Shown here one piece after another: positions 3,252-24,076 of a stretch of DNA of 24,076 bases. This stretch comes from a virus. The translations under genes and the position numbers were made by a program. The stretch spans positions 1 to 24,076 of the IMG/VR virus record IMGVR_UViG_3300043158_000001; one strand, 5' to 3'. The notes below the pieces were generated by a model. It searched no databases. It was given only the letters and a program-made list of their open reading frames with translations, and was not told the origin of the DNA. Position 1 is the stretch's first letter; each line of letters starts with the position of its first letter.

Positions 3252-3411
3252 GCTCGTCGCTGCGGCGACGCGCATCGAGGCCGGCAACTTTGAGCTCGAG
3301 CTGTGGCCGGATGGGACCTACTTCGTGCGCGCACCGAGCGGTGAAGGCACCGCTGTCAGCCAGGCCGCCCTCGCCGTGAAACTGCGCGAGCTGTTTGAGG
3401 AGCATTTCTAA
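3211..3411 (+). CDS. Small hypothetical protein after portal
   Basis: A 66-residue protein. I chose ATG 3211, which begins MATRPHF, because AGGAG at 3196-3200 gives it good ribosome-site spacing. An earlier in-frame ATG at 3148 lies deep inside the portal gene with no such site. The core reads like a compact alpha/beta fold: ELVAAATRIEAGNFELELWP then DGTYFVRAPSGEGTAVS, ending in a short helix. No catalytic motif, signal peptide or membrane segment. Its position between portal and scaffold is usual for small accessory head genes. Function unknown. Confidence 0.62.
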   Translation: MATRPHFQPRPISELVAAATRIEAGNFELELWPDGTYFVRAPSGEGTAVSQAALAVKLRELFEEHF

Positions 3412-3412
3412 C

Positions 3413-3769
3413 ATGGGCCGAGTCCGCCTTCGCATGCGATGGGATCCCAAGCGCTGCGAGCTCGTCGAGGTGCCGCTCGAGTCGATGCAACGCCGCCCCT
3501 CGGAGGCGCCCGTCGTGCACGGCGATTACGAGGGTTACACGTCGCCCATCACCGGCGAGTGGATCGAGGGCCGACGAGCTCACCGCGAGGACCTCAAGCG
3601 CCACGGGTGCCGTGTGTACGAGGGCCGCGAGAGCGAGCAGCGCGCCGCGACTCGTGTGCAGGCCGAACACGCACGCCAGACCGAGCAGCTCGCCGAAAAG
3701 ATGGCCGCGCGTGCCTGGGACCAGGCGCCGAGCCGGGTCCGCCGGATCCTTTCCGGCGGCAAAGAGTAA
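3413..3769 (+). CDS. Conserved hypothetical phage protein
   Basis: A 118-residue protein starting at ATG 3413 (MGRVRLRMRWD), preceded by GAGGAG at 3395-3400. Residues about 38-67 read DYEGYTSPITGEWIEGR followed by a basic helix. This 'SPI(T/D)G..I.GR..HREDLKRHG' pattern recurs, from memory, in small proteins located just before the scaffold/capsid genes of podoviruses. The C-terminal half is a charged helix (RVQAEHARQTEQLAEKMAARA), probably a coiled coil. No enzyme motif. It may be a capsid-assembly accessory; the role is inference. Confidence 0.65.
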   Translation: MGRVRLRMRWDPKRCELVEVPLESMQRRPSEAPVVHGDYEGYTSPITGEWIEGRRAHREDLKRHGCRVYEGRESEQRAATRVQAEHARQTEQLAEKMAARAWDQAPSRVRRILSGGKE

Positions 3770-8343: not shown

Positions 8344-9360
8344 ATGTCGCTGCTCACGATGGTGCAACAGGTCGCGCTCAAGGTCCTAAAGATACCGACG
8401 AGCTCGATCATCACCGCCGTGGGCAGCGCGGACCCCAACATCCTCGACATCATCGGATTTCTCAACGAGGACGGCCAGGAGCTCGCGAGCCGTCACACCT
8501 GGCAGGGCCTGCGAAATGAGGCCAGCTACTCGACCCCAGGCGCCGCCGGCGGGATCCTCACACTCGGGAGCCTGGTCGGGGGCGCTGGATACGCCGGCGG
8601 TTTCTCGAGCGTGTACGGTTTCGTGCCGCTCACCGGTGGCCACGGCGCCGGGGCGATCGCCACCGTGTCGGTCGTCAACGGCGTGGTCACCACGGTGACG
8701 CTCGTCGTCAACACGCAGGGCAGCGGCTACCAGGTCGGGGACGTGCTCTCGGCCACCGCGGCGAATCTCGGGGGCTCCGGCGCCGGCTTTTCGATCACGG
8801 TGTTGACCGTCGGCATCGTGGGCAAAACCGCACAGGGCACGATCCAGTCGATCACCGGCAGCAACTTCGCTTTCATCGTCAACGAGACGTTCTGGGATCG
8901 CTCGACCCGCCGCCCCGTGTTCGGCCCGAAAACGCCGCTCGAGTGGCAGCAGCTGCAGGCGCAGCTGATGCAAGGGCCCTGGTATCAGTACACGATCCGC
9001 GGCAACCAGCTGCTCATGATCCCGCCGCCGGCACCTGGGGACCTGATTTACTTCGAGTGGATCCAGAACACCTGGTGCACCAACGCCGGCGCCACGCAGC
9101 AGCAGACGTTCCTGCAGGCCGACACCGACGTGTCGCTGCTCGATGAGGTGCTGCACGTCTTGGGCGGGATCTGGCGCTTCAAGGAGGCGAACGGGCTGCC
9201 CTATCAGATGGCGCAGGACAAGTACGAGCGTCGCTTCGCTGATCTCACCTCGCGCGACGGCGCCAAGGCGCGACTCGATCTCGCCGGCGCGCAGCAGGAC
9301 ATTTACCCCGGCATCATGGTGCCCTCCGGCAACTGGCCGATCGCAGGCGAGCCCGGTTAA
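8344..9360 (+). CDS. Putative head-tail adaptor with inserted Gly-rich domain
   Basis: A 338-residue protein. The N-terminus is helical (LLTMVQQVALKVLKIPTSSI, then DPNILDIIGFLNEDGQELAS), and the C-terminal half (FEWIQNTWC, DVSLLDEVLHVLGGIWRFKE, YQMAQDKYERRFADL) is a helical bundle. This split pattern is typical of podovirus adaptors that sit under the portal. Between them, at about residues 95-160, lies a beta-rich insertion: GGHGAGAIATVSVVNGVVTT, a GSGYQVGDVLSA turn and GSGAGFSITV. From memory, this G.G.GA..T..V..G.V...GxGYxxGD.L unit recurs as a mobile module in many phage virion proteins. ATG 8344 follows the previous stop by three bases, with AGGAGG at 8330-8335. Confidence 0.68.
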   Translation: MSLLTMVQQVALKVLKIPTSSIITAVGSADPNILDIIGFLNEDGQELASRHTWQGLRNEASYSTPGAAGGILTLGSLVGGAGYAGGFSSVYGFVPLTGGHGAGAIATVSVVNGVVTTVTLVVNTQGSGYQVGDVLSATAANLGGSGAGFSITVLTVGIVGKTAQGTIQSITGSNFAFIVNETFWDRSTRRPVFGPKTPLEWQQLQAQLMQGPWYQYTIRGNQLLMIPPPAPGDLIYFEWIQNTWCTNAGATQQQTFLQADTDVSLLDEVLHVLGGIWRFKEANGLPYQMAQDKYERRFADLTSRDGAKARLDLAGAQQDIYPGIMVPSGNWPIAGEPG

Positions 9361-10989
9361 GTGTTCGCGCCTTACGTCATCGGCCAGCGGCAGATCCAGC
9401 AGCCGCAGGCGGTTTCGGTCGCCGGCAAGTCGATCCCGGCGCCGACCGGCGGCCTCAATGCTCGCGATGCGATCGCGAACATGCCAGAGACCGACGCGGT
9501 CATCATGGACAACTTCTTCCCGACGCAGAGCAACGTGCAGCTACGCAAGGGGCGCCTCACGTCGGCCACCTTCGCCGGGGTCTGCGAAACACTCGCCGGC
9601 TATCCGGGGCTCGTGGCGAATGAGCTCTTTGCCGCGGTCAACAATGCCGGCGTCCGCTCGATCTATCGCGTGGACGGCCTCGCCGGCGGCCCTGTCGGCG
9701 CGCCCGTGGTCGGAGGCTCAGGCGGCACGATCCAGCCGATCACGTCCACGCAGTACGACTGGGTGATGAGCTCGACCGGCGCGGTTGAGGCGCTCTACCT
9801 GGTCAACGGCGTCGACAACCCGCTGCTGTTCGACGGAACTGCCTGGCACTCGGTCTCGCAGGTCTCTGTCCCCTACGCGCTCACCGGCATCAATCCCAAC
9901 ACGCTGAGCGCGGTCGGTTCCTATCACGGGTCGCTGTTCTTCATTCAGGCAAACAGCTTCAACGTGTGGTGGCTCGCGGTCGATGCGATCGCCGGCGCGC
10001 TCACACAGCTGCCGCTCGGTGCATACTTCACCCTCGGCGGCTACCTGGTGTCGATCCTGACGGTCTCGATCGACAACTCCCAAGGCCTGCAGGACTACAT
10101 CGCCTTCATCGCCAACACGGGCGAGGTCGTGGTGTTCCAGGGCTACAACCCGGCCTCGGCGACGACCTGGTTTCTCTCGGCGCACTTTCGGCTCGGGCGC
10201 CCGATCGGCTTGGGGCGCCGCTGCTGGCAGAAGATGGGCTCGGACGCGGCGATCATCTGTGTCGATGGCGTCATCATGATGAGCCAGGCGCTGCTCACCG
10301 ATCGCTCGCAAAGCCGCAACGCGGTCTCGGACAAGATCCGCAACGCGGTCAACGCCGACATACTGAATTACGGCAACAACTTCGGCTGGCAGGCACAGCT
10401 CTACCCTGACGGCAACAAGCTCATCATCAACGTGCCGACGACGCAGGCCTCGGCGAGCTATCAGTACGTCATGTGCACGCTCAACGGGAGCTGGTGCACC
10501 TTCGGCAAGTACGCTTCGCCCTGGAACGCCTATTGCTTCGAGGTGCTCGGCAACAACTGCTATTTCGGCACGACCGGTAGCGTGCAGCAGTGCGACACCG
10601 GCCAGGACGATGCCGGCAGCTCGATCCAGGGCCTGTGCACGCCGGCTTTTTCCTACTTCGGCCTGACCGGGCGACTCAAGCGTTGGACGATGGCGCGGCC
10701 GATCTTCACCGTCAACGGATCGCTTTCGGTCGGACTGACCTTCAACGTCGATTTCGCGATGGGTGTGCCGACCGGCACCGTGCCGGTGACCGTGGGCAAC
10801 GCTGCGCCGTGGAACACCTCACCGTGGAACACGACTTTCTGGGGCGATGCGACTGTGATCTCGAAACAGTGGATCGGGATCTCGGGCTTGGGATACGCAG
10901 GCTCGCTGTCGCTGCAGGTCAACGCGAAGGACGTCACGATCCAGTGGCAGAGCACCGATTATCAGTTTGAGCCGGGCGGCTTGATGTGA
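9361..10989 (+). CDS. Beta-rich tail protein (P22 gp10-like stabilisation region)
   Basis: A 542-residue protein starting at GTG 9361 directly after the previous TAA. Residues about 22-60 carry a recognisable phage signature: PAPTGGLNARDAIANMPETD, then AVIMDNFFPTQSNVQLRKGR. The rest is repeated short beta strands with many Trp, Tyr, Gly and Asn (NVWWLAVDAIAGALTQLPLG, then NSQGLQDYIAFIANTGEVVVFQ), which suggests a beta-propeller. This type follows the adaptor in podoviruses and probably closes the portal channel or connects it to the tail hub. Near the C-terminus there is a PWNTSPWNTTFWGDA repeat. It overlaps the acetyltransferase gene by GTGA. Confidence 0.68.
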   Translation: MFAPYVIGQRQIQQPQAVSVAGKSIPAPTGGLNARDAIANMPETDAVIMDNFFPTQSNVQLRKGRLTSATFAGVCETLAGYPGLVANELFAAVNNAGVRSIYRVDGLAGGPVGAPVVGGSGGTIQPITSTQYDWVMSSTGAVEALYLVNGVDNPLLFDGTAWHSVSQVSVPYALTGINPNTLSAVGSYHGSLFFIQANSFNVWWLAVDAIAGALTQLPLGAYFTLGGYLVSILTVSIDNSQGLQDYIAFIANTGEVVVFQGYNPASATTWFLSAHFRLGRPIGLGRRCWQKMGSDAAIICVDGVIMMSQALLTDRSQSRNAVSDKIRNAVNADILNYGNNFGWQAQLYPDGNKLIINVPTTQASASYQYVMCTLNGSWCTFGKYASPWNAYCFEVLGNNCYFGTTGSVQQCDTGQDDAGSSIQGLCTPAFSYFGLTGRLKRWTMARPIFTVNGSLSVGLTFNVDFAMGVPTGTVPVTVGNAAPWNTSPWNTTFWGDATVISKQWIGISGLGYAGSLSLQVNAKDVTIQWQSTDYQFEPGGLM

Positions 10990-11441
10990 GGGTAGTCGGG
11001 GCCCCGGCCGAACGCATCGCGCACTGGCTCGCTGAGCGTGTGCCGCACTTTGTTGTCGGCTCGACGCCTTACACCGCGGTCGCCCTGGTCAAGGATTCCG
11101 GGCCGATCCTGGCAGCCGTGGTCTATGACAACTTCACGCGCATCAATGTCGACACGCACATCGCGATCGAGCACCGGCACGCGATGACGCGGCAATTCCT
11201 GGGTGAAATCTTTCGGTATCCATTCCTGCAGCTCAAGGTCGCGCGCATCACCGGTAAGGTGGCGGCGAGCAACACGGCCTCGAGGCGGCTCTGCAGGCAT
11301 TTCGGTTTCGTCGAGGAGGGCTGCTGCCGCCAGGCGCTGCCCGACGGCGATGATCTGGTCCTCTTCGGCATGCTGAAAAGCGAGTGCCCGTGGTTGGAGG
11401 TGGGGGAAAATGGGAAAGAGCAGCGCGCCACAGGCACCTGA
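10986..11441 (+). CDS. GNAT-family N-acetyltransferase in the tail cluster
   Basis: A 151-residue protein, starting at GTG 10986 in a GTGA overlap. It has the GNAT fold pattern: beta strands around AVVYDNFTRINVDTHIAIE, then a YPFLQLKVARITGKV strand at residues 78-92. Asn96 and RRLCRHFGFVEEG (100-112) are the usual acetyl-CoA-binding helix and GF turn. By family it moves an acetyl group from acetyl-CoA to an amine; the substrate is unknown. Similar short GNATs sit among virion genes of other podoviruses (from memory), so a role in modifying a virion or host protein during infection is possible. The end overlaps the next gene by 32 bases, where its C-terminal residues look unstructured. Confidence 0.78.
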   Translation: MRVVGAPAERIAHWLAERVPHFVVGSTPYTAVALVKDSGPILAAVVYDNFTRINVDTHIAIEHRHAMTRQFLGEIFRYPFLQLKVARITGKVAASNTASRRLCRHFGFVEEGCCRQALPDGDDLVLFGMLKSECPWLEVGENGKEQRATGT

Positions 11442-12820: not shown

Positions 12821-14581
12821 ATGCCCGACATGAGCCAGGTCCCGGCCGGCGTCCCGCCCCAGGACTACTCGGACTTCATCACCGCGCAGCGCCAGCAAAT
12901 GCTGGCCAACGCGTTGATGCAAGGCTCGATGACTCCGATCCAGCAGCCGCAGACGACGCCCGTCAAAGGCCTCTACGTGCAGCCGCGCGTCGGAGCTCTT
13001 CAGGGTGTGTCGAAGGTCGCCGAGGCCTTGTTGGGCAACAGCGCCGCCAAACAGGCGATGCAGTCGCAGGTCAAGCTGCAGCAGGCGCTCAACCAGGCTT
13101 ATGCACCTGGCGGGCAGCAGACGAGCCCGGGCACGCCGCTGCAGGCCGCTCCCCCGCCGAGTGATCCGGACGAGCAAAGCGTGCAGCCGGCGATCGCGCG
13201 CGCACCTGGCCAGAGTCTTGCGACGACGGTGCAGCAGACGCAGCCGACAACTGCGCCCGTCAACCCGCGCAACCCTTACGGCCTGCCGGCCGATGTCGCG
13301 CGTCAACTCGCGATGTCGGACCCTGCAAAATATGCCGCGTATCTGCAGGGCCCCGAGTGGGCGCAGCAGGCGCGAGCGGCCAACATCGATCCCGGCACTG
13401 CAGCTCGAGCACTGCTCGCAAAACAGACCGCCCAGGAGGTACGCCCTGGCGCGACGATGATCGATCCGATCTCGGGCCGCACCATCGTCGGCGCCGATCC
13501 GAGCAAGGGCGAGTTCTACGCTGTCGGTCCCAACGGCCAGGTCGTGGCGATGCCGATCCAGAATGACGCGCAGCTGCAGGCGATCCGCGCCGGTCTCACG
13601 ACCGCGGCGACGCAGGCCAACACTCCGCGCGAGATCCCGATGGGTGGCGGCGTCAGCACAATCGGGTATCCTCCGACTCCGCCGGCATTGCGAGCTCCTC
13701 AGCAGCAGCCCCCTGCTGCTCCCGCTCCGGCCGGTCAGTCGCCTGCTCCGCCTGGTGCCGCACCTGTTGCTGGTCCCGCACCTGGCGCTGCAGCACCTGG
13801 CGCCGCGGGACCGACCTTGCCCGGTCCCCCGCGGCCGCCGGGGACTGCTCAAGCTCCTCCCGCGCCGCAAGCCACCGGTTTCTGGTCGTCGATGCCCAAG
13901 CTGCAGATTCCTGTCACGCCTGGGCAGACTTCCAACACGTACCAGCAGAAGAACCTCGAGGCGGCGTCGGCGAAAAATGCCGAGCTCTCGACGCAGTACG
14001 GCCAGCAGTCCGCGCTCGCCGACCAACAGCTCGACTTGAATCGCCGCGCGCTCGCGGCGCTGCCGAACGCTGAGGTCGGCCCGATGTCCGAGTGGCTGAC
14101 GACGAACCGCGCGCGCCTCATCGAGGCCTTCCCGTCGCTCAAGAGTCTGATCCCTGAATCGGGCAGCGTCACGCCGACGATGGAGCTCAACAAAGAGCTG
14201 CTCAACTCGGCACTGCAAGGTGCGCGGCAGATCTACGGGAATCGCATGACGCAAAACGAGGTCAAGCTGCAGACGGAGGAGATGAGCCCGAGCTCGCACA
14301 TGACCGCGGACGCGATCCAGTCACTCGTCGCGCAGGGCAACGTGCAGGCGCTGTACTCGAAACAGCGCGCCACCGATTACAACACCTTCACGCGCCGCGG
14401 CGGAGATCCGCTGCAGTTCGAGGCCTGGTACGCGCAGCAGCGCCCGCTTAGTGAATTCGCAGCGATGCAGCAGATGAGCCCCGCGCAGCGCCAGGTCGCG
14501 ATGCAGCGTTTCTCGCAAAACCCTGGCTCGCGCGCTGACTTCAAGAACGCGCTCGGATGGGATCCGGTGAACTGGCAATGA
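12821..14581 (+). CDS. Large Pro/Ala/Gln-rich putative internal virion protein
   Basis: A 586-residue protein. The N-terminus has helical segments, FITAQRQQMLANALMQGSMT and SKVAEALLGNSAAKQAMQSQ. Then comes RNPYGLPADVARQLAMSDPA, a motif of the 'GLP...A..L...DPAKYA' type often seen in podovirus virion proteins. Residues about 285-355 are almost pure Pro, Ala, Gly and Gln. The C-terminal third is helical (SEWLTTNRARLIEAFPSLKS, then MELNKELLNSALQGARQIYG) and ends in FKNALGWDPVNWQ. No membrane segment and no lytic-enzyme motif. It is probably an ejected or internal core protein, inferred from position before the next large gene and from composition. Confidence 0.6.
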   Translation: MPDMSQVPAGVPPQDYSDFITAQRQQMLANALMQGSMTPIQQPQTTPVKGLYVQPRVGALQGVSKVAEALLGNSAAKQAMQSQVKLQQALNQAYAPGGQQTSPGTPLQAAPPPSDPDEQSVQPAIARAPGQSLATTVQQTQPTTAPVNPRNPYGLPADVARQLAMSDPAKYAAYLQGPEWAQQARAANIDPGTAARALLAKQTAQEVRPGATMIDPISGRTIVGADPSKGEFYAVGPNGQVVAMPIQNDAQLQAIRAGLTTAATQANTPREIPMGGGVSTIGYPPTPPALRAPQQQPPAAPAPAGQSPAPPGAAPVAGPAPGAAAPGAAGPTLPGPPRPPGTAQAPPAPQATGFWSSMPKLQIPVTPGQTSNTYQQKNLEAASAKNAELSTQYGQQSALADQQLDLNRRALAALPNAEVGPMSEWLTTNRARLIEAFPSLKSLIPESGSVTPTMELNKELLNSALQGARQIYGNRMTQNEVKLQTEEMSPSSHMTADAIQSLVAQGNVQALYSKQRATDYNTFTRRGGDPLQFEAWYAQQRPLSEFAAMQQMSPAQRQVAMQRFSQNPGSRADFKNALGWDPVNWQ

Positions 14582-16290
14582 GCGGAGGCCTGTACGACGA
14601 CCTGGTCGCGACGCCTGGCGCGGCTAGCTCGGCCGCGGCCGCAGGTGGTGCGCCGGCGACGAGCTCCTCGAGCGCCCCGAGCCTGTACGCGGATCTCGCG
14701 CCTCCGGTGCCGGTGCCGGCGAAGCAGTCAGGCCCTCCTGCCACTGCTGCCGATCGCGTGCAGGCAGCCGAGGGCGGCATCATCAAGGGCGCCGCCTACA
14801 CCGCAGGCCTCATTCCCGATACGCTTCTGAACCTTGGGAGCCTGGGCACCGCGGTCTCGGATGCCGCGCGCCACTACATCGGCGGCACCGACTGGGCTGA
14901 CCTCCCGCGCCCGTCAAACCTCTCGCCCGTCGGGCACGCGCTCACGCAGCTCGCGGACAAGTCACCGATCACGACGACGCAGCCGGTGCGGCCGGATGAT
15001 CCTGCCTCGCGCTATCTCAACACGGGCGCGAGCGTGTTGCCGGCGATCGCCGCGGGCGGTGAGGCCTCGGTCCCGAACCTGGTGCGCTCGACTGCGACGG
15101 CCGTACCGCCGGCGCTCGCCGCTCAGTACGTCGCCGAGGCGAAGCCTTTCAAGTCCGATGCGGCGAACAATGCCGCGACCGTGCTGACGCAGGCGCTCGG
15201 GACTGCAGCGATGCCGCGCCTTCCCGGAGCTCCGCTCGTGAGCAAAACCAACCAGGCGGTGCAGGCAGGCCAGGAGGCCGGCTACGTGTTTCCGCCTGGC
15301 ACGACCAACCCGACCGCCGGCAATCGGATGCTGTCGGGCATCGCAGGCAAGGCCGCGATCGACCAACACGCCACGGTAGAAAACCAGCCCGTCACCAACG
15401 AGCAGGCGCGCGCAGCGATGCGCATCGCGCCCGGCGATGGTTCGGCGGTGTCTGACGCCGAGATCGCCGAAGCGAAAGCGAACGCTGCGCCAGGGTACGA
15501 CGCCATGCGCGGCGCCGGGCAGATCACAGCTCCGCCCAACATGGCCGCGCAGCTCGCCGCGGCACTGAAACAGCAAAGCGGCGCCGGGCGTCTCGCGCCC
15601 TCACTGCGCAACACGCAGCTCGACAACCTGACGGCGGAGATCGGGAGCAATAAGACTTTCGACGCCGGTGACGCGATGGACACGATCGCCGAGCTCCGCG
15701 ACAAGTCGAGCCAGGCATACCGCCAGGGCGATGCGAGCGCGGGGCGCGCCTACAAGGGCGTGTCGAACGTGATCGAGAACGCGATCGACCAGCACTTGAG
15801 CGCGAACGGGCAGCCGGACACCGTGCAGGGCTTCCGCGATTCGCGGCAGACCTTCGCCGCGATCAACACGGTCGAGGCGGCGCGCAACCAGACGACCGGC
15901 AACGTGCAAGCGCAGAAGCTGGCGGCGGCGTTGAAGGGCGGCGACTACATCGGGCCCGAGGGCTCGCCGCTGCGCATCGCGGGCGAGGCCGCCGGCCAGG
16001 CGCCGAAGGCCTTCGCCGAACCGACCACGACACCCGGCTCGAGTCACCTCGGATTTTGGGGCAGCGTGGCGCTTGCGGCTGGCGCCGGTGAGCACCTGCC
16101 AGTCGAGCACGGGGCTGCGCTCGCGGCGGCGCCGCTCGTTTACCAGGGCGGCCGGTACGCGGCGCGCAAGTACGCGCTCGGCCCAGGCCAGGGCGGCGCG
16201 GTGCAATACGGACCAGGGCAGGTTGATCCGCGTGTGCTCGCCGCGGCTTTGACGAGCTCGCCGGGGATCGTGCAGCAGTCGCAGCGCTAG
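14578..16290 (+). CDS. Large Ala-rich putative ejection protein
   Basis: A 570-residue protein from ATG 14578, in an ATGA overlap with the previous stop. The in-frame ATG at 14557 has no advantage. The N-terminus repeats a short motif, GLYDDLVATPG and SLYADLAPP, about 35 residues apart, separated by an Ala/Ser linker. Small hydrophobic or Gly-rich segments follow (YTAGLIPDTLLNLGSLGTAV and VLPAIAAGG). Residues about 240-300 hold GYVFPPGTTNPTAGNRMLSG and NEQARAAMRIAPGD, which I recognise as a recurrent podovirus virion-protein region. The C-terminal segment LGFWGSVALAAGAGEHLPVE may contact membranes. The gene ends tail-to-tail with the antisense cassette. A DNA-transfer role is inference. Confidence 0.62.
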   Translation: MSGGLYDDLVATPGAASSAAAAGGAPATSSSSAPSLYADLAPPVPVPAKQSGPPATAADRVQAAEGGIIKGAAYTAGLIPDTLLNLGSLGTAVSDAARHYIGGTDWADLPRPSNLSPVGHALTQLADKSPITTTQPVRPDDPASRYLNTGASVLPAIAAGGEASVPNLVRSTATAVPPALAAQYVAEAKPFKSDAANNAATVLTQALGTAAMPRLPGAPLVSKTNQAVQAGQEAGYVFPPGTTNPTAGNRMLSGIAGKAAIDQHATVENQPVTNEQARAAMRIAPGDGSAVSDAEIAEAKANAAPGYDAMRGAGQITAPPNMAAQLAAALKQQSGAGRLAPSLRNTQLDNLTAEIGSNKTFDAGDAMDTIAELRDKSSQAYRQGDASAGRAYKGVSNVIENAIDQHLSANGQPDTVQGFRDSRQTFAAINTVEAARNQTTGNVQAQKLAAALKGGDYIGPEGSPLRIAGEAAGQAPKAFAEPTTTPGSSHLGFWGSVALAAGAGEHLPVEHGAALAAAPLVYQGGRYAARKYALGPGQGGAVQYGPGQVDPRVLAAALTSSPGIVQQSQR

Positions 16291-16493
16291 CTGCGGCTCT
16301 CGAGGTAGCGGGTAAGGCTGACCGTAAAGCCGAGGATGAGCGCCGCGAGAAACAGCGTCGGGAACAGGTACCCGATCGCCAGGAGGGCGGCGGAGCCGAG
16401 CAGCCAGGTCAGAAAGTAGAGGGCGAACATAGGGGCTCGCAGCAACAGGCTACAGACGACGCAGAAGGCGAGCGCGGTGAGGACTGTGAGCAC
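16287..16493 (-). CDS. Small multi-pass membrane protein of antisense cassette
   Basis: A 68-residue protein, leftward, from GTG 16493 directly after the TGA of the lipoprotein gene. Almost the whole chain is hydrophobic. Two or three membrane spans are visible at about residues 2-18, 22-42 and 44-60, with Arg19 between the first two and a charged end (RYLESRS). There is no cleavable signal. It resembles small phage inner-membrane proteins such as superinfection-exclusion or lysis-control factors, but I do not recognise a family. Its TAG overlaps the opposing structural gene's TAG in the palindrome CTAG. Being paired with a lipoprotein suggests a joint envelope function. Confidence 0.66.
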   Translation of the reverse strand: MLTVLTALAFCVVCSLLLRAPMFALYFLTWLLGSAALLAIGYLFPTLFLAALILGFTVSLTRYLESRS

Positions 16494-16706
16494 TCACTGA
16501 TGGTACCCCTGCGCCGCAGCGTTGTGCACGCACTCGTTGATCTCGTGGGTGGCGATCGCGCTGCTGATGAGACCGACGTAATAGCGTTGGGTGCAGTCGA
16601 TGACGTGACCCTGGTCATCGTGCAAGACGGCGACGGTAGTAGTGCAGCCTGAGAGACTGGCGCCGATGGCTGCTATCACGAGCGCCAGGGTTTTCCTGGT
16701 GTTCAT
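16494..16706 (-). CDS. Small lipoprotein of antisense cassette
   Basis: A 70-residue lipoprotein, leftward. I chose ATG 16706 because it gives a textbook signal: MNTRKTLALVIAAIGASLSG with lipobox LSGC and Cys21 as the modified residue, followed by Thr at +2, which suggests the outer membrane. The in-frame ATG at 16772 would add 22 residues that spoil the signal. The mature part is about 50 residues with two more cysteines (VIDCTQRYY, INECVHNA) that could form a disulfide. The gene is antisense in a rightward late operon and is followed without a gap by a small membrane protein. Candidates are superinfection exclusion, receptor masking or lysis control. The function is unknown. Confidence 0.72.
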   Translation of the reverse strand: MNTRKTLALVIAAIGASLSGCTTTVAVLHDDQGHVIDCTQRYYVGLISSAIATHEINECVHNAAAQGYHQ

Positions 16707-16761
16707 GACGCTCAGCTTGCGCCGGCCTCGGCCTCCTTTCCACGTTTGAGGTGACATAACC

Positions 16762-18138
16762 GTGCCATTCAATGGAACTGGGACGTTCGTCCGGCTTTAT
16801 AACTGGACCAACGACGCCAACAACAGCATCCCCATCAGCGCGAACCGCTTCGATGGCGAGGACAACGATTTCGCCTCGGGGTTATCGCTGTGCCTGACGC
16901 GCGACAGCCAGGGTGCTCCGACCGCGCCTCTCACCTGGGCGCAGCCGCTCACGATCAACGTCGGCACGGATGAGACCGTGATCGCGGCCGGGCGCACCGG
17001 TGGCGTCAACAATCCGCAGCTGCAGCTGCAAGTCGCCGACGCCAGTGGCGGCACGCTCAACCTCTCGACCGCGCAAACGCTCGCGCTTGCGATCGCGGGC
17101 GCGGCGATCCTGAGCCTCGGAGCCGCGCGCGCGACTTTCGCGCAGCCGGTGGCGTTGCCGGTCGGTGCGGTCGGCACGCCTAGTCTCGGCTTTACGGGCG
17201 ACCTGACTTCCGGGCTCTACCACGTCGGCGCCGGCGACATCGGCATCGCCATCAGCGGCGTCGAGGTCATGGACTGGCAGGCCGCGCAGATCACGGCTTT
17301 CAACTCCGCGATCGCCGGCACCGCCGTGCTGCAGGCGATCAACACGAGCACGACTGCGACGCAGGATTTGCGCGAGAACCTCACCGCCGGCTCGAGCTCG
17401 CTCTCGCTTTACGTCGCAAACCAAAACCGCGCGACCGCAGTGCTCACCGGCGGCCCGACAGCAGCGCAGGCGGCGCTCTTCACGACGAGCGCGATCCCGC
17501 TCGCCTTCGGCGTCAATAACATCTACGCCGGGCAGATCGCGAGTACGGGCGCCTGGAGCATTCCGGCCCCGTCTTCGGCGGTCATCGGGCTGACTGTCCA
17601 GGCCGCCAATACCAGCTGGGCGATCGAAGCCCTCGGCGGAGCGACCAGCGGCCAGTCTTTCGGTCTCTTGATCGAGGCGGGCACGACCGCCGCCGACACG
17701 GCTTTCGAGATCGCCACCCAAGGCGGCGCCGCCATTATCTGGGAGACGATCGGCAACGGGCAGAGCTTCGTCTATGTGCCGAACGCTGCGACGGCGGCGC
17801 CCTCCAACATGGCGCAGGTCGGCTACGTCGACATCCCGCAGAATTCGCAGAATGCGAGCTACCAGTTAATCCTGAGCGACCGCGGCAAGCACATCTGGAA
17901 TGCCGGCTCGCTCGCCACGCTGACGATCCCCGCGAACAGCGTGACGGCCTTCCCCATCGGCACGGCGATCACGATCGTCAACATCAACACCGCGCTCACG
18001 ATTGCGCTCGCGACCGACACGCTGCGCTGGCTGCCGAGCGGCACGACGGGCAACCGCACGCTCGCGCAGTTCGGGCAGTGCACGATCCTCAAGGTCGCTG
18101 CGCAGCAGTGGACGATCACCGGTGTCGGCTTGAGCTAA
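16762..18138 (+). CDS. Tail fibre protein
   Basis: A 458-residue protein from GTG 16762. The N-terminus FVRLYNWTNDANNSIPISAN is the typical virion-attachment motif of podovirus tail fibres (RxYNWxNDxxNxIPI). A low-complexity beta shaft follows, including TPSLGFTGDLTSGLYHVGAG, a 'GF.GD.xTGLY..GaG.IG' unit common in phage fibre shafts. The C-terminal third has beta strands such as SLATLTIPANSVTAFPIGTA and IVNINTALTIALATDTLRW, and ends in WTITGVGLS. That end resembles a fibre-tip or trimerisation domain. By family it recognises the host surface. The two downstream genes probably belong to the same receptor-binding module. It is separated from the lipoprotein gene by only 55 bases, head to head. 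Confidence 0.8.
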   Translation: MPFNGTGTFVRLYNWTNDANNSIPISANRFDGEDNDFASGLSLCLTRDSQGAPTAPLTWAQPLTINVGTDETVIAAGRTGGVNNPQLQLQVADASGGTLNLSTAQTLALAIAGAAILSLGAARATFAQPVALPVGAVGTPSLGFTGDLTSGLYHVGAGDIGIAISGVEVMDWQAAQITAFNSAIAGTAVLQAINTSTTATQDLRENLTAGSSSLSLYVANQNRATAVLTGGPTAAQAALFTTSAIPLAFGVNNIYAGQIASTGAWSIPAPSSAVIGLTVQAANTSWAIEALGGATSGQSFGLLIEAGTTAADTAFEIATQGGAAIIWETIGNGQSFVYVPNAATAAPSNMAQVGYVDIPQNSQNASYQLILSDRGKHIWNAGSLATLTIPANSVTAFPIGTAITIVNINTALTIALATDTLRWLPSGTTGNRTLAQFGQCTILKVAAQQWTITGVGLS

Positions 18139-18139
18139 C

Positions 18140-18874
18140 GTGAAAAAGTTCGCGGTTCGCATCGTCGTTGATGGCGTCCCGCTCAAACGCCGGGAATGGC
18201 TGCGCAATCGATGGGCGCGTCCGGCCGAGCGGCGGTTGCGCCGCAGGCTGCGTATTCGCTGCAATGTCACGCAAGCGCTCGCCGGCGCCGGCACTTTCAC
18301 GCCGCTCATCAATATCCACACGAGCGGCACCGGCGCCACTGAGACCGTCCCGAGCGGTGCGAGCCTTGTCACTATCGAGACATGGAGCAGCGGCGCGGGC
18401 GGCGGCAACGGCTCGGGCACCGGCTGCACGAGCTCAGGCGGCGGCGGTGGCGCCTCGGGCGGCTATTCGCGGACGGGCGGTTTCAACGTCGCGACTCAAG
18501 GCGGAAAGACTTTCACCTATACCGTCGGCGCCGCGGTTTCCGGCAATACCGTCGGCAACGCGACGACCGTGTCAGCTGGCACGGTGACCGGCTTCACGAC
18601 GATGACCGGCAGCGCGGCCAATAAGGGCGCAGTCGGTCCCACGGGCGCCGGCGGCACCGGCGTTGCCCCCACCGGCGGCACGAGCGCGAACACTGCGGGC
18701 AACAACGGCACGGCCGGCACCGGCAGCTCGGGCGGTATCGGCGGCTCGGGCATCGCGGGCACAGTGCCGGGCGACGGCTCACCCTACGCGGCTGGCGGAC
18801 ATGGCGGCTACAGCACCGCGGAAACCGGGCAGACGGGCGGCGCTGCTGGCGCAACTGTCTTCTCGTACACCTGA
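18140..18874 (+). CDS. Glycine-rich putative fibre-tip adhesin
   Basis: A 244-residue protein from GTG 18140, two bases after the tail fibre stop. The first 45 residues are strongly basic with many Arg (PAERRLRRRLRIRCN). From about residue 60 the composition changes to Gly, Ser, Thr and Ala with almost no charge. There are runs such as SSGAGGGNGSGTG and SGGGGGASGGYS, then GKTFTYTVGAAVSGNTVGNA and further Gly-Gly-x repeats to the end. The pattern 'GGGG.SGGYS....V..G.TFTYTVG' is that of Gly-rich domains at phage fibre tips that pack as polyglycine helices. I infer a distal receptor-binding protein. The Arg-rich start is odd, and the true start could be further in. TGATG couples it to the cupin gene. 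Confidence 0.66.
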   Translation: MKKFAVRIVVDGVPLKRREWLRNRWARPAERRLRRRLRIRCNVTQALAGAGTFTPLINIHTSGTGATETVPSGASLVTIETWSSGAGGGNGSGTGCTSSGGGGGASGGYSRTGGFNVATQGGKTFTYTVGAAVSGNTVGNATTVSAGTVTGFTTMTGSAANKGAVGPTGAGGTGVAPTGGTSANTAGNNGTAGTGSSGGIGGSGIAGTVPGDGSPYAAGGHGGYSTAETGQTGGAAGATVFSYT

Positions 18875-19233
18875 TGCACTTCACGCACCTGCAAATCGGC
18901 GCGGACTTCGCCGTCCTCTACCGCTTCGACCAGGCGGGCGATGGGATCCCGATGCATGCGCACCCGCACGAGCTCGAGCACACCGTCACATGCACGCGCG
19001 GGACAGTGGAACTCTACGGGCCCGGCCGCGCCTGGCGCCAGGTGCTGCGGATGGGCGAGACGTGTTCGCTCTTCGATTCGACCAAGCCGCACGAGATCGC
19101 AGCGCTCGAGGATCACTCGAGCGTTCTCAACACATTCCTGCACGGGCGTCCACCCGCATACGTCGACCTGCCGCCGCATGAGATCGACGGCAGCCTTGAA
19201 ATGCAACTCACCGAGCCACCTGAGAGGGCCTAA
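18874..19233 (+). CDS. Cupin-domain protein
   Basis: A 119-residue single-domain cupin. The first cupin motif is visible: GIPMHAHPHELEHTVTCTRG, with His28, His30 and Glu35 as likely metal ligands and Gly43. The second motif is GETCSLFDSTKPHEIAAL with the fourth ligand at His73. A metal ion, probably divalent, is therefore expected. ATG 18874 shares a base with the previous TGA. Cupins include sugar isomerases, dioxygenases and binding proteins; nothing here decides the substrate. Its place directly after two host-recognition genes suggests a link to fibre assembly or to sugar at the cell surface, which is inference. Confidence 0.75.
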   Translation: MHFTHLQIGADFAVLYRFDQAGDGIPMHAHPHELEHTVTCTRGTVELYGPGRAWRQVLRMGETCSLFDSTKPHEIAALEDHSSVLNTFLHGRPPAYVDLPPHEIDGSLEMQLTEPPERA

Positions 19234-19850: not shown

Positions 19851-20080
19851 ACAACAAGGCAATCGCGCACGCCTTCGACAGCGTCAAGCGATTAAAGCAA
19901 ACCGTGCGCCGCCTCGATGCCGCGATGCAGAAGCTCGAACCGCTGGTCGCTCACGCGCGGATCGACAAGTTTGATGTGCAGCGCTCGCTCAACAACTGCG
20001 ACGCCAACATCGAAGTTGGCACGCACTGGCTCAACAAGGCGATCGCCGACATCTTGGAAGTCGTGCCGGAGGACTCATGA
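19847..20080 (+). CDS. Small helical hypothetical protein of the lysis cluster
   Basis: A 77-residue protein from ATG 19847, with ATGA overlaps at both ends. Helical and amphipathic: DSVKRLKQTVRRLDAAMQKL then DKFDVQRSLNNCDANIEVGT and HWLNKAIADILEVV. No signal peptide, no membrane span, one cysteine. It lies between the coiled-coil membrane protein and the endolysin. No family recognised; the role is unknown. Confidence 0.6.
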   Translation: MNNKAIAHAFDSVKRLKQTVRRLDAAMQKLEPLVAHARIDKFDVQRSLNNCDANIEVGTHWLNKAIADILEVVPEDS

Positions 20081-20523
20081 GCGAGGCGCTGGATATCTTC
20101 GCCGCGCGCGCCATCCGCGAGGAGGCCAAGCGCCGGCTCGCCTATAACGATGCGACCGGCAAAACGGTGACGTGTCAGCCGGGCGGAAACCTCTCGATCG
20201 GCATCGGGATCAACCTCGAAGCCGGGCTCGATGACGCGGAGATCGAATGGCTCTTCCGACACCGCGCCGGGCTCATCGAGACACAGTTGCAGGTGTTCGC
20301 CTGGTACACGGGCGCGGATCCGGTGCGCCAGTCGGTCGCGCTCGATGTCGGCTTCAATGAGGGCCTGCGCGGCCTTTTGCATTTCCCGCACATGATCGCC
20401 GCCTATGCGGTGAAGGATTGGCCGACGGCGGCCAGCGAGTGCCGGATCGAAGATCCGAAAGTCGACGCCCAACGCTACGCGCCGCTGCGCGTGCTTCTCT
20501 TGAACGGAGCGACGTCAGCATGA
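20077..20523 (+). CDS. Endolysin, T4-type muramidase-like (GH24)
   Basis: A 148-residue protein. Glu16 and Asp25, nine residues apart (EAKRRLAYND), match the catalytic Glu/Asp spacing of T4 lysozyme. LSIGIGINLEAGL at 39-51 matches the TIGIGH region, with Ser40 in place of the usual Thr and about nine extra residues between Asp25 and Ser40. The C-terminal half has the family's ALDVGFNEGLRGLLHFPHMI helix-turn and a DWPTAASE helix. The expected reaction is cleavage of the MurNAc-GlcNAc bond in peptidoglycan. No signal peptide or SAR-type N-terminus, so it needs a holin to reach the periplasm. The next gene supplies one. Confidence 0.82.
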   Translation: MSEALDIFAARAIREEAKRRLAYNDATGKTVTCQPGGNLSIGIGINLEAGLDDAEIEWLFRHRAGLIETQLQVFAWYTGADPVRQSVALDVGFNEGLRGLLHFPHMIAAYAVKDWPTAASECRIEDPKVDAQRYAPLRVLLLNGATSA

Positions 20524-21053
20524 CACTCGACAGCCTCGGCCAGACTGCAAAGCAAGTCCTCGCCACGGTGGCGCCGCTCCTCGGTATCGCGCTCGGCGGC
20601 CCCTTTGGCGGCCTCGCCGGCACCATGCTCTCGAAGGCGCTCGGGACAACGGACCCGAGCAAGATCGAAGCGGCCATTACGTCGACCGACCCCGACATCC
20701 TCCTGAAGCTCAAGCAGGCGGATAACGATTTCAAGACGCAGACCGAGGCGCTACAGATCAGCGAGGAGAAGCTCTCATTCGATGACACCGCGAGCGCTCG
20801 CGCGCGGGAAATGACGGTCAAGGATCACACGCCCGCGATTCTCGCTTACTTCATCACGGCCGGCTTTTTCGCAGTCCTCGGCTACATGATGGTCAAGGGC
20901 GCTCCGGCCACCAACGGCGGCGGCGGCGAGGCCTTTCTGATTATCCTCGGCGCGCTCGGGGCTGCCTGGACCGGCGTCATTTCGTACTACTTCGGTTCGA
21001 GTGCCGGGAGCGTCCAGAAGGACAAGACGCTCGCGGACATAGCAAAGTCGTGA
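20520..21053 (+). CDS. Three-span holin-like protein
   Basis: A 177-residue protein. ATG 20520 overlaps the endolysin stop by ATGA; an upstream in-frame ATG at 20418 lies inside the endolysin. Hydrophobic segments are at about 13-38 (VLATVAPLLGIALGGPFGGL), 105-125 (PAILAYFITAGFFAVLGYMM) and 138-158 (AFLIILGALGAAWTGVISYY). Between the first two is a charged helical segment (LLKLKQADNDFKTQTEALQ). The C-terminus FGSSAGSVQKDKTLADIAKS is a familiar end of '3TM' phage holins. By family it forms the hole that releases endolysin and sets lysis time. The position after endolysin supports this. Confidence 0.75.
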   Translation: MTLDSLGQTAKQVLATVAPLLGIALGGPFGGLAGTMLSKALGTTDPSKIEAAITSTDPDILLKLKQADNDFKTQTEALQISEEKLSFDDTASARAREMTVKDHTPAILAYFITAGFFAVLGYMMVKGAPATNGGGGEAFLIILGALGAAWTGVISYYFGSSAGSVQKDKTLADIAKS

Positions 21054-21794: not shown

Positions 21795-22079
21795 CTACGG
21801 TATGCCCTTTTCCTGCTCGTCTTGGGCGGCCAGAGGCTCGTTGAGCACGTAGTCGCTCATGTCGGTGCCCGCTTCCTCCAAGGCCTCCCACTGCACGCGG
21901 TTTATCACCAGCTTGATCTGACCCTCGAGCGCAAGGGGGGCGACCCGGATGATGCGAGGGCAACGCTGTACACGGCCGGCTTGGTGCTGGTCCCAGGGCA
22001 GCCCACAGCTGGCGCAGTGCTCCATATCGTCCAGCTTGGGAACCCAGACCGACTCGTCATCAAAGCGCCTTCCAGTCAT
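21795..22079 (-). CDS. Small CxxC protein downstream of integrase
   Basis: A 94-residue protein, leftward, from ATG 22079 in an ATGA overlap with the integrase stop. Residues 20-41 contain Cys22, Cys25, His32 and Cys40 (EHCASCGLPWDQHQAGRVQR then CP), a likely zinc-knuckle pattern of a type seen in many small phage proteins. The C-terminal half is mixed (APLALEGQIKLVINRVQWEA) and acidic at the end. It is the last gene of the operon, and its 3' end carries the right 15-bp repeat next to attP. Its role is unknown. Confidence 0.66.
   Translation of the reverse strand: MTGRRFDDESVWVPKLDDMEHCASCGLPWDQHQAGRVQRCPRIIRVAPLALEGQIKLVINRVQWEALEEAGTDMSDYVLNEPLAAQDEQEKGIP
21798..21812 (+). repeat. 15-bp direct repeat, right copy (possible integrase arm site)
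   Basis: Second copy of CGGTATGCCCTTTTC. It overlaps the 3' end of the small leftward gene, on the integrase side of the attP core. Confidence 0.5.
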
Positions 22080-23098
22080 CGCGGCTTCCCCTTCCGATGC
22101 TCAGCGTACGTCCTCAGGTGCTCGACCGACAGGTGAGCATAGGTCTCAACCATCGACGCGGATTTCCATGTCCCGAGCTTCTGCAGGACGTGGGGCGGTG
22201 TGCCCGCCTGGATATGCCAGCTCGCCCAGGTATGTCGCAGGTCGTGGAACCGCAGCCAGGGCACGCCGGCGCGCCGGGCCGCCGCTTTGAACTCGTGCCC
22301 GTTTGCGTCCGAGAACGGGATCGCCTGACCCTTCGGGCCGCGCCTGAAGGTGAATACACGCGAGTCGTGCGCGCCTCGTTGGGCGCGAATCACTGTCACT
22401 GCGCGCTTGCTCAGCGGTATCGCGATGGTCTCGGCATTCTTCGCGCTCGAGGCGGGGATCAATAGCTGCCGCCGGCGCAGGTCCACCTGGTCCCAGGTTA
22501 GCCCCGTGATATTGCGCATGCGCAGCCCCGTCTCGAGGCCGCATTCGACGACTGCGCGCAGATGCGGAAACTCGCGCAGCTCGTGCAACAGTCGCACAGC
22601 CTGTGCGCGCGTGAGGAACAGCCGCTCGTGCCGCTCGAGCTTCACCATCGGTACCGCGGGCATCTTCTCGATCCAGTCCCACTCGCGCAGAGCCTTGCGC
22701 AGGATCATGCGCATGAGCGCCATGTAGCGGTTCGCTGTCGACACAGAGGTCTCGGCCGTGCGCACCGCGCGCAGCCTCGCAATGATGGAGGGGGTGATGT
22801 CGGCGAGCGCTGTCGGGCCGAGCAATTGCGGCTCGGCCGAGAACCACTTCAGCCGCTCGGCGTCCCGGTCTTTGTCACGACCCGTAGCCTCGGTCGCCCA
22901 TCGCTCGACGGCCTGCTTCCAGGTGTAGCGCGGGCGCTCGCCGAGGCGCCGTTCGCGCCACGCAGCACCGCGAAGTTTCGCTTCGAGCTCGTCGGCGAGT
23001 GCTTTGTCAGTTGTGCCAGACGAGCATCGAGTCTTGATTCCACCGACCGTGAATCGGATCCACCAGTACGGGCTCTTAGGCTGGCGATAGAGTGGCAC
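22076..23098 (-). CDS. int: Tyrosine-type site-specific integrase
   Basis: A 340-residue integrase, leftward. I chose GTG 23098 (PLYRQPKSPYWWIRFTVGG) because this is the normal start of the family. An upstream in-frame ATG at 23158 would add 20 residues inside the HTH gene without a domain. The arm-binding N-terminus is followed by a core-binding helical domain (about 65-155) and the catalytic domain. Catalytic residues are Arg193 (TGLRMRNITGL), Lys220 (SSAKNAETIAIPL), His285/Arg288 (HDLRHTW), a Trp in place of the second His (LGTWKSASM) and nucleophile Tyr320 (ETYAHLS). It cuts and joins attP with attB by a covalent 3'-phosphotyrosine. Its 3' end faces attP, about 320 bases away, with one small gene between. 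Confidence 0.93.
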   Translation of the reverse strand: MPLYRQPKSPYWWIRFTVGGIKTRCSSGTTDKALADELEAKLRGAAWRERRLGERPRYTWKQAVERWATEATGRDKDRDAERLKWFSAEPQLLGPTALADITPSIIARLRAVRTAETSVSTANRYMALMRMILRKALREWDWIEKMPAVPMVKLERHERLFLTRAQAVRLLHELREFPHLRAVVECGLETGLRMRNITGLTWDQVDLRRRQLLIPASSAKNAETIAIPLSKRAVTVIRAQRGAHDSRVFTFRRGPKGQAIPFSDANGHEFKAAARRAGVPWLRFHDLRHTWASWHIQAGTPPHVLQKLGTWKSASMVETYAHLSVEHLRTYAEHRKGKPR

Positions 23099-23268
23099 GC
23101 GCGCTCTTTGGCTTGTTGTCGGATGAGCTCGACCAGGTCGGCCTCGACGAATACCCACCGTCGGCCGATCTTGGCCCCGGGAACCTTACCCGCGCGCGCC
23201 TTGCGCAGCAAACAGTCCTCGCTGAGGTGCAGCAGGCGGGCGGCGTCGGTGAGGCCGAGGGTCGTCAC
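22849..23268 (-). CDS. Excisionase-like HTH protein overlapping integrase
   Basis: A 139-residue protein, leftward, from GTG 23268, which overlaps the previous stop by GTGA. An earlier in-frame ATG at 23385 lies in the upstream gene. Residues 3-52 form a MerR/excisionase-type winged HTH: TTLGLTDAARLLHLSEDCLL, RKARAGKVPGAKIGRRWVF, then EADLVELIRQQ. By family it binds near attP and directs excision or regulates int. From residue 57 the frame continues for about 80 codons through the first 250 bases of integrase in another frame. That tail (RACHSIASLRARTGGSDSR, then Ser/Arg-rich) has low complexity. From memory, related HTH proteins upstream of integrases also have a CHS...GGSxS tail, so the overlap may be real. 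An internal stop-free artefact is the alternative. Confidence 0.74.
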   Translation of the reverse strand: MTTLGLTDAARLLHLSEDCLLRKARAGKVPGAKIGRRWVFVEADLVELIRQQAKERACHSIASLRARTGGSDSRSVESRLDARLAQLTKHSPTSSKRNFAVLRGANGASASARATPGSRPSSDGRPRLRVVTKTGTPSG

Positions 23269-23819
23269 GGTTCCACGTTCGACAATGAGAATGGCATCGG
23301 AGCCAAGTGCTTTCCCTCGTGTCCGGCCGGCAATGTGCAGGGAACGATGGGTCCACCAATTACGGGTTGCCACGTTGCGGGACAAGCCGACGTCTCGACA
23401 GCTGGTCCCTCAAGCCCTCGCACCGCAGCCTTAAACCCGCAGGTGCATTGATCGGGTCCGAGTCGCCGGCAGTCGCTCGTATGACGGCACCATTTCAGGA
23501 ACAGCTTGCGCAGCCGCTCGATCTCGTCGGCCTTCATACCGTTCGCGATCTCGAGGTCGGTGACGCGCTCGCGGAGCTGCTCGAGCTGGCGCCCGACGGG
23601 AATCGGCACGTCGTACTCCGTCCCGTCGACGACGACGCGCAACCGCTCGGCGTCGATCCGGTGCAGCGTCTTGGTGAGGTGCTCGTTGCTCTTGCGCAAG
23701 TCCGCCCACCACCGCACTAGGTCGCGCGCGCATTCCTTGCAGAGTGCCGGACCGCCGCAGCGCGCAAGCACCCCGTCGTCGCGCCGGTAGACATGTCCGT
23801 GCCCGGTGTTGGCGCTCAT
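23265..23819 (-). CDS. Cys-rich coiled-coil hypothetical protein
   Basis: A 184-residue protein, leftward, from ATG 23819 (ATGA overlap with the J-domain gene). There are three cysteine/histidine clusters. The N-terminal one is Cys21-x5-Cys27-x2-Cys30. The middle one is Cys111, Cys117, Cys125 and Cys127. The C-terminal one is Cys146-Pro ... Cys161-x-Leu-Pro-Ala-Gly-His167-x3-His171. A coiled coil (residues about 75-108, QLEQLRERVTDLEIANGM) joins the first two. The C-terminal cluster matches the motif of the small gene at 21050-21217. The protein probably binds several zinc ions and forms dimers. No known family or enzyme motif. Early-operon context suggests a DNA- or protein-binding accessory. 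Confidence 0.68.
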   Translation of the reverse strand: MSANTGHGHVYRRDDGVLARCGGPALCKECARDLVRWWADLRKSNEHLTKTLHRIDAERLRVVVDGTEYDVPIPVGRQLEQLRERVTDLEIANGMKADEIERLRKLFLKWCRHTSDCRRLGPDQCTCGFKAAVRGLEGPAVETSACPATWQPVIGGPIVPCTLPAGHEGKHLAPMPFSLSNVEP

Positions 23820-24076
23820 CGCTGCTCCTCGAGCAGCGCGTCGCGCGCGGCGTTGATGCGTGCCATTGCATGCGCGTCTCCACCTGGTCGATCCGGATGA
23901 TGCTTGGCGGCGAGGAGTCGGTAGGCGCGCTCGACCTCCTCTCTGCTGGCGTTCGCGCCAACGCCGAGAACCTGGAACGGCTGCTCGGGCGCCGGTAATG
24001 CGGCGAAACCCATGAACGCGCGGTCGAGAATCTCAGCGCCACCGTGGCGCTCGATCGCGCGCATCGCCTCGAGCGT
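23816..24076 (-). CDS. Phage J-domain protein (partial, C-terminal part)
   Basis: The gene enters from the right edge and ends at 23816; 86 C-terminal residues are visible. They end in a J-domain: FQVLGVGANASREEVERAYR, LLAAKHHPDRPGG with the diagnostic HPD, and MARINAARDALLEE. Before it is EAMRAIERHGGAEILDRAFM then GFAALP. This is the linker seen in phage DnaJ-like proteins that have an extra N-terminal domain, so I expect that domain beyond the edge. The in-frame ATG at 24064 would cut that linker and is probably not the start. J-domains stimulate the ATPase of DnaK; in phages they may recruit host DnaK, for example during replication or assembly. The stop overlaps the next start by ATGA. 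Confidence 0.8.
   Translation of the reverse strand, partial: TLEAMRAIERHGGAEILDRAFMGFAALPAPEQPFQVLGVGANASREEVERAYRLLAAKHHPDRPGGDAHAMARINAARDALLEEQR

Follow-up and report, generated by a model that had tools for sequence, protein, structure and literature searches.

Known phage exclusion genes and a possible counterpart beside a tail gene

In phage P22, the 'ant moron' (the immI-sieA region) forms a slot that holds the superinfection-exclusion gene sieA (PMC2629481, PMC8022706, PMC10883804). sieA reads leftward, adjoins gene 16, which encodes the last ejection protein, and lies in the slot before the tailspike gene 9; its inner-membrane product blocks DNA injection, and escape mutants alter the ejection proteins gp16 and gp20 (PMC10883804). 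Exclusion by lipoproteins is described in the mEpimmI phages, which carry Lpp genes within the structural cluster and whose expressed lipoproteins exclude phages (PMC11893012). Here we analyse a leftward pair of small envelope-type genes, called the cassette below, in the IMG/VR virus record IMGVR_UViG_3300043158_000001 (24,076 bases of a 66% G+C genome, the whole of which is referred to as the window). The cassette lies in a slot of the same type, between the last ejection-protein gene and a tail gene, and superinfection exclusion would be its best explanation.

To judge from its gene content, the window comes from a temperate phage of podovirus type, because it encodes a portal protein (phrog_12082), a major head protein (phrog_9953), tail and internal proteins and a tyrosine integrase. 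The features needed below are these:

14557..16290, plus strand: left border, last ejection protein gene ('internal protein C'-like; tblastn alignment to the 'putative internal protein C' of Xanthomonas phage PBR31, E 7e-29)
16287..16493, minus strand: predicted 68-residue membrane protein, second cassette gene
16494..16706, minus strand: predicted 70-residue lipoprotein, first cassette gene
16707..16761, no strand: divergent intergenic stretch of 55 bases between the cassette and the tail gene
16762..18138, plus strand: right border, tail/fibre gene (N-terminus matching the virion structural protein family phrog_13989, E 2.5e-12)
22076..23158, minus strand: tyrosine integrase (PF00589, E 9e-27; phrog_1)

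The window and P22 agree in the location of the slot, and in both cases the contents vary among relatives or are missing. They differ in that the mnt, arc and ant genes are absent from the window, where only the two cassette genes fit into 16291-16761, in that ejection protein C is not recognisably gp16 (a short match was at chance level), and in that the 68-residue membrane protein is without similarity to SieA, which has about 165 residues. The window slot, moreover, holds a two-gene operon of a lipoprotein and a membrane protein. The lipoprotein resembles Cor (of N15, phi80 and mEp167) and the mEpimmI Lpp proteins as a small phage-encoded protein with a lipobox, but unlike these it is paired with a membrane protein and encoded on the opposite strand.

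The leftward gene pair and its relatives

The initial annotation had described two abutting leftward genes at 16287-16706 interrupting a rightward run, and both open reading frames (ORFs) were recovered at these positions, with rightward genes on either side. The lipoprotein gene runs from an ATG at 16706 to a stop at 16494. Its product has a basic N-terminus, a hydrophobic stretch, the lipobox LSGC at residues 18-21, two further cysteines (C38 and C59), as had been read from the sequence, and no proline. The frame stays open upstream to a TTG at 16772, and the ribosome-binding site of the ATG is weak; the signal peptide is what points to the ATG as the probable start. The GTG start of the membrane protein gene (16493) immediately follows the lipoprotein TGA, and its 3′ end (stop at 16287) shares 4 bases with the end of the rightward ejection protein C gene. 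The product, which the initial annotation had called almost wholly hydrophobic, is hydrophobic throughout with two or three predicted hydrophobic segments, and Arg19, Arg62 and Arg67 would fit three segments with the C-terminus inside.

The two ORFs look like real genes, because they have a coding-type base composition and because the corresponding slot of a related contig carries homologues of both, likewise leftward. G+C by codon position was 0.59/0.45/0.88 for the membrane protein and 0.56/0.45/0.79 for the lipoprotein, comparable to the 0.55/0.44/0.92 of the major capsid gene. In the related contig, IMGVR_UViG_3300043777_000418 (loci L001/L003), a 68-residue homologue of the membrane protein is 56% identical (L001:4550-4756) and a lipoprotein gene precedes it. 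Compared with this homologue, the coding frame of the membrane protein gave a ratio of non-synonymous to synonymous differences (pN/pS) of 0.71, the lowest of the six frames; for the lipoprotein the coding frame was again the lowest of six (0.58 against a third locus, L073), from only 51 poorly aligned codons. The tail gene N-terminus was 94% identical in L003 and 47% in L004.

The intergenic stretch 16707..16761 falls within a block of 78 bases that is 73% identical to L001, and it would have to house both the leader sequence of the cassette and the ribosome-binding site of the tail gene. Terminator-like matches fall within the gene. In L001/L003, about 110 bases separate the tail start (L001:4077) from a conserved TTATGTCACCTCAA block (near L001:4185-4205); this block is the ribosome-binding region of the tail gene in the window and is kept in L001/L003 though it lies away from the tail start.

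The lipoproteins of the relatives can be placed by profile searches in a known, uncharacterised phage family, phrog_5685. The L001 lipoprotein (101 residues as listed, 97 from the second ATG) matched phrog_5685 at E 2e-7 and, in Burkholderia phage JC1, the lipoprotein gp17 at E 9e-10; its match to orf62 of Salmonella phages ST104/L/ST64T was weak. In L073 too the slot contains a leftward lipoprotein, which shares 61% identity with the L001 protein and matched Salmonella orf62 at E 3e-4 over 87% of the query; the ST104 orf62 product is a full phrog_5685 member (E 4e-62), and in ST104/L its gene lies in the equivalent slot. Between the L001 and L073 lipoproteins pN/pS was 0.43, the lowest of six frames, which indicates purifying selection.

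The window lipoprotein resembles orf62 of ST104/L and gp17 of JC1 as a small lipoprotein with the conserved GxxIxC and CxxxA motifs, and it has the signal region, the IxC and the CxxxA motif in common with its phrog_5685-like relatives. It gave no PHROG match at E<=10. Against a four-sequence profile it scored 4.8 bits, a value reached by 42 of 1995 shuffles, and its local score with the L073 lipoprotein was equalled by 2 of 1000 shuffles. A shortened, diverged member of the phrog_5685 family is accordingly a plausible identity, not a proven one. The view of the initial annotation that neither family is recognisable holds insofar as the window proteins match no described family; it does not hold for the lipoprotein of the relatives, which belongs to phrog_5685.

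A viral-contig scan with the lipoprotein alignment gave no match, and genome-contig scans yielded no relatives of the 68-residue protein or of ejection protein C. For both cassette proteins, searches of PHROGs, Pfam and NCBIfam returned LptM (E 0.14), Rrn7 (E 0.46) and phrog_3641 (E 0.16), which were rejected as chance matches. As to structural homologues, a search suggested in the initial annotation, PDB profile searches gave none for the membrane protein; the 60 matches listed for the lipoprotein included nothing but viral NS3 protease chains (E 0.02-0.16), which were taken as chance. The AlphaFold model of the lipoprotein was poor (predicted local distance difference test score, pLDDT, 52), and the single 66-residue helix predicted for the membrane protein was judged an artefact of a two-sequence alignment.

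Occupancy of the slot across relatives

Relatives were collected via ejection protein C (56 loci) and via the tail N-terminus (42 loci), and gaps of at least 90 bases between the border genes were scored for ORFs with a transmembrane or lipoprotein signal, the expectation being taken from dinucleotide shuffles. In many relatives the border genes adjoin each other directly or nearly so, and the slot is empty. Of the 26 gaps scored, 19 had leftward envelope-type ORFs, where the shuffles gave 2.5, and 2 had rightward ones, where they gave 0.7. Three loci, L032, L047 and L060, were set aside because their leftward ORFs are probable shadow ORFs, judged by eye to lie opposite what is left of a tail N-terminus, and L093 duplicates L092; with these four loci pruned, 15 of 22 gaps had leftward ORFs (about 1.8 expected) and 1 of 22 a rightward one, the ORFs of 30-43 residues in L051, L069, L074 and L075 being weak individually. 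These counts do not amount to a formal probability because the loci share ancestry, and the asymmetry between strands is the best control for the survey.

The occupants are leftward envelope proteins that are often unrelated to one another, so the slot retains its type of content, reverse-strand and envelope-directed, while the proteins turn over. Besides the 68-residue family and the phrog_5685-like lipoproteins, we found a 58-residue protein with two transmembrane segments and a good ribosome-binding site (L004), two overlapping leftward membrane ORFs (L076) and a leftward lipoprotein of a different kind (L097). In L073 the stop of the lipoprotein gene overlaps the GTG of a 30-residue protein with one transmembrane segment, and a third membrane protein, containing IPEGPAKRFLFKPR, follows directly. 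The last of these has a motif, PEGxxKRxL (PEG, one or two residues, KR, any residue, L), that occurred five times in the six frames of the 1.1 Mb of loci, always leftward in this slot and nowhere else. The five small putative membrane proteins, each identified by the motif, are:

L048:7009-7197, minus strand: small membrane protein with PEGxxKRxL
L073, about 3340-3578, minus strand: small membrane protein with PEGxxKRxL
L092:3791-3985, minus strand: small membrane protein with PEGxxKRxL
L093:1501-1695, minus strand: small membrane protein with PEGxxKRxL, in the duplicate of L092
L094:3843-3968, minus strand: small membrane protein with PEGxxKRxL

The L092 member had no match among the annotated phages searched. 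In Acidovorax phage AP1 (L007), the slot at 9123-10559 holds one rightward protein with two transmembrane segments and four leftward coding sequences, the latter with no obvious membrane signals.

The initial annotation had proposed an envelope-protein moron beside the tail fibre, and the survey agrees with it, the slot occupant being different or missing in relatives. Presence or absence at one site between otherwise syntenic genes is one mark of a moron, an insert in a phage operon with expression of its own, and this assignment of the cassette is well supported.

Upstream of the slot, the gene at 12821..14581 (plus strand) takes the 'internal protein B' position of PBR31 by gene order only, the annotated order in that phage being internal proteins A, B and C followed by the tail spike gene; PHROG and Pfam searches with its product gave no match. 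Between the tail and ejection genes of the window lies a GNAT acetyltransferase gene (10986-11441, plus strand; phrog_4470, E 1e-35), whose position in the order is the same in the annotations of PBR31, BUCT555, ctMlz233 and ppBjS10J-1. A 119-residue cupin-like protein is encoded amid the tail genes (18874-19233, plus strand; PF07883 at E 3e-4, under the curated cut-off), and near the integrase an open-ended ORF (23816-24076, minus strand) resembles a DnaJ J-domain, as judged by eye only. No tRNA or Rfam element was found within the window.

Proposed function and its alternatives

We suggest that the cassette is an insertion in the genome of a temperate podovirus: a leftward operon of two genes, set between the gene for the last ejection protein and the tail gene. 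Lying on the opposite strand, it would be transcribed separately from the late genes and probably in the prophage state. The lipoprotein would be exported and lipidated. Threonine follows its lipidated cysteine, which by the +2 rule points to the outer membrane; having no aspartate at this position, it would probably be carried there, with the 68-residue partner residing in the inner membrane. Jointly or singly, the pair may protect the lysogen from superinfection by the same or related phages. This could happen at the inner membrane, in the manner of P22 SieA, through interference with the way the ejection-protein conduit of the incoming phage assembles or works, or at the outer membrane through a receptor block of the Cor/Lpp lipoprotein type, or in both ways. 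In our judgement the best explanation, at somewhat short of an even chance, is a moron expressed in the lysogen that impedes the entry of DNA from related phages; the function and its target are suggested by position and protein type only, a membrane protein and a lipoprotein being united here in a slot of the sieA type.

Several observations weigh against it. The 68-residue protein showed no similarity to SieA in tblastn searches of P22-like phages or in PHROG, and the window lipoprotein none of Cor, Llp or Lpp type in 50,697 phage records. In ST104/L, orf62 is co-directional with the late genes and not opposed to them. Neither strand around 16707..16761 yielded a sigma-70-like promoter. The relatives of the window lipoprotein are longer; it lacks their C-terminal third with the conserved RSLIVSC part, and could be decaying. 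On the favourable side, an integrase, expected if carriers are temperate, was present in the window and in four of the five other independent well-supported carriers (L068, L073 weakly, L092 and L094; not L048), and in 4 of 10 records of at least 24 kb whose border genes abut or nearly abut; from few records, some of them incomplete, this correlation is suggestive only.

The alternative that survives best, although it seems unlikely to us, is lysogenic conversion other than exclusion, in which the pair alters the envelope of the lysogen (permeability, stress resistance or surface properties), to the advantage of the host and without an effect on phages. The moron anatomy suits any conversion gene, and phrog_5685-like lipoproteins also occur outside the slot, on plasmids and in the early region of JC1, yet the recurrence of envelope proteins beside ejection and tail genes better fits a target in phage entry. 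A decaying remnant, functionless in the window phage, is a good deal less probable: the missing RSLIVSC part, the weak ribosome-binding site and a pN/pS of the membrane protein that is just moderately low would agree with it, but both frames are intact, the TGA-GTG junction is tight and the codon-position composition is normal. A role in lysis appears very improbable. The membrane protein has the size and hydrophobicity of a small holin (or antiholin), and its combination with a lipoprotein is reminiscent of the two-component spanin Rz/Rz1; however, the cassette is on the opposite strand from the late genes and outside the lysis region, an endolysin-like gene (weak T4-lysozyme matches only) followed by a membrane protein lies downstream at 20077-21053, the all-hydrophobic membrane protein is without the periplasmic domain required of an inner-membrane spanin, and the lipoprotein is proline-free. 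We give hardly any credence to the idea that the leftward transcript rather than the proteins matters, tuning late transcription into the tail gene, since leftward ORFs encode membrane proteins or lipoproteins repeatedly and beyond chance, in conserved families and under purifying selection, as for the L001 and L073 lipoproteins.

Superinfection exclusion might extend beyond this one cassette. On a broader reading, which is tentative and which we hold to be rather doubtful, podoviruses far outside the P22 group would share a general reverse-strand 'exclusion slot' in the gap that separates ejection protein C from the tail gene. Many unrelated families of tiny inner-membrane proteins and lipoproteins (the 68-residue family, the PEGxxKRxL family and the phrog_5685-like lipoproteins among them) would occupy it, each tuned to the adjacent ejection conduit and together forming a diverse and mostly unannotated reservoir of phage-entry blockers.

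The type of slot and the idea of exclusion are already known from P22. The occupants described here, and the recurrence of the slot outside P22-like phages, appear undescribed in the literature searched; what is new is that the slot repeatedly holds reverse-strand envelope genes, the PEGxxKRxL family among them, in podoviruses with border genes that cannot be recognised as P22 genes. If the broader reading is true, a leftward ORF at this one address would predict a small superinfection-exclusion protein of a kind that escapes gene callers and family libraries, and would do so in phages from many environments. Every such phage would encode an exclusion candidate next to the ejection proteins that are its likely target, so that specificity would be directly testable.
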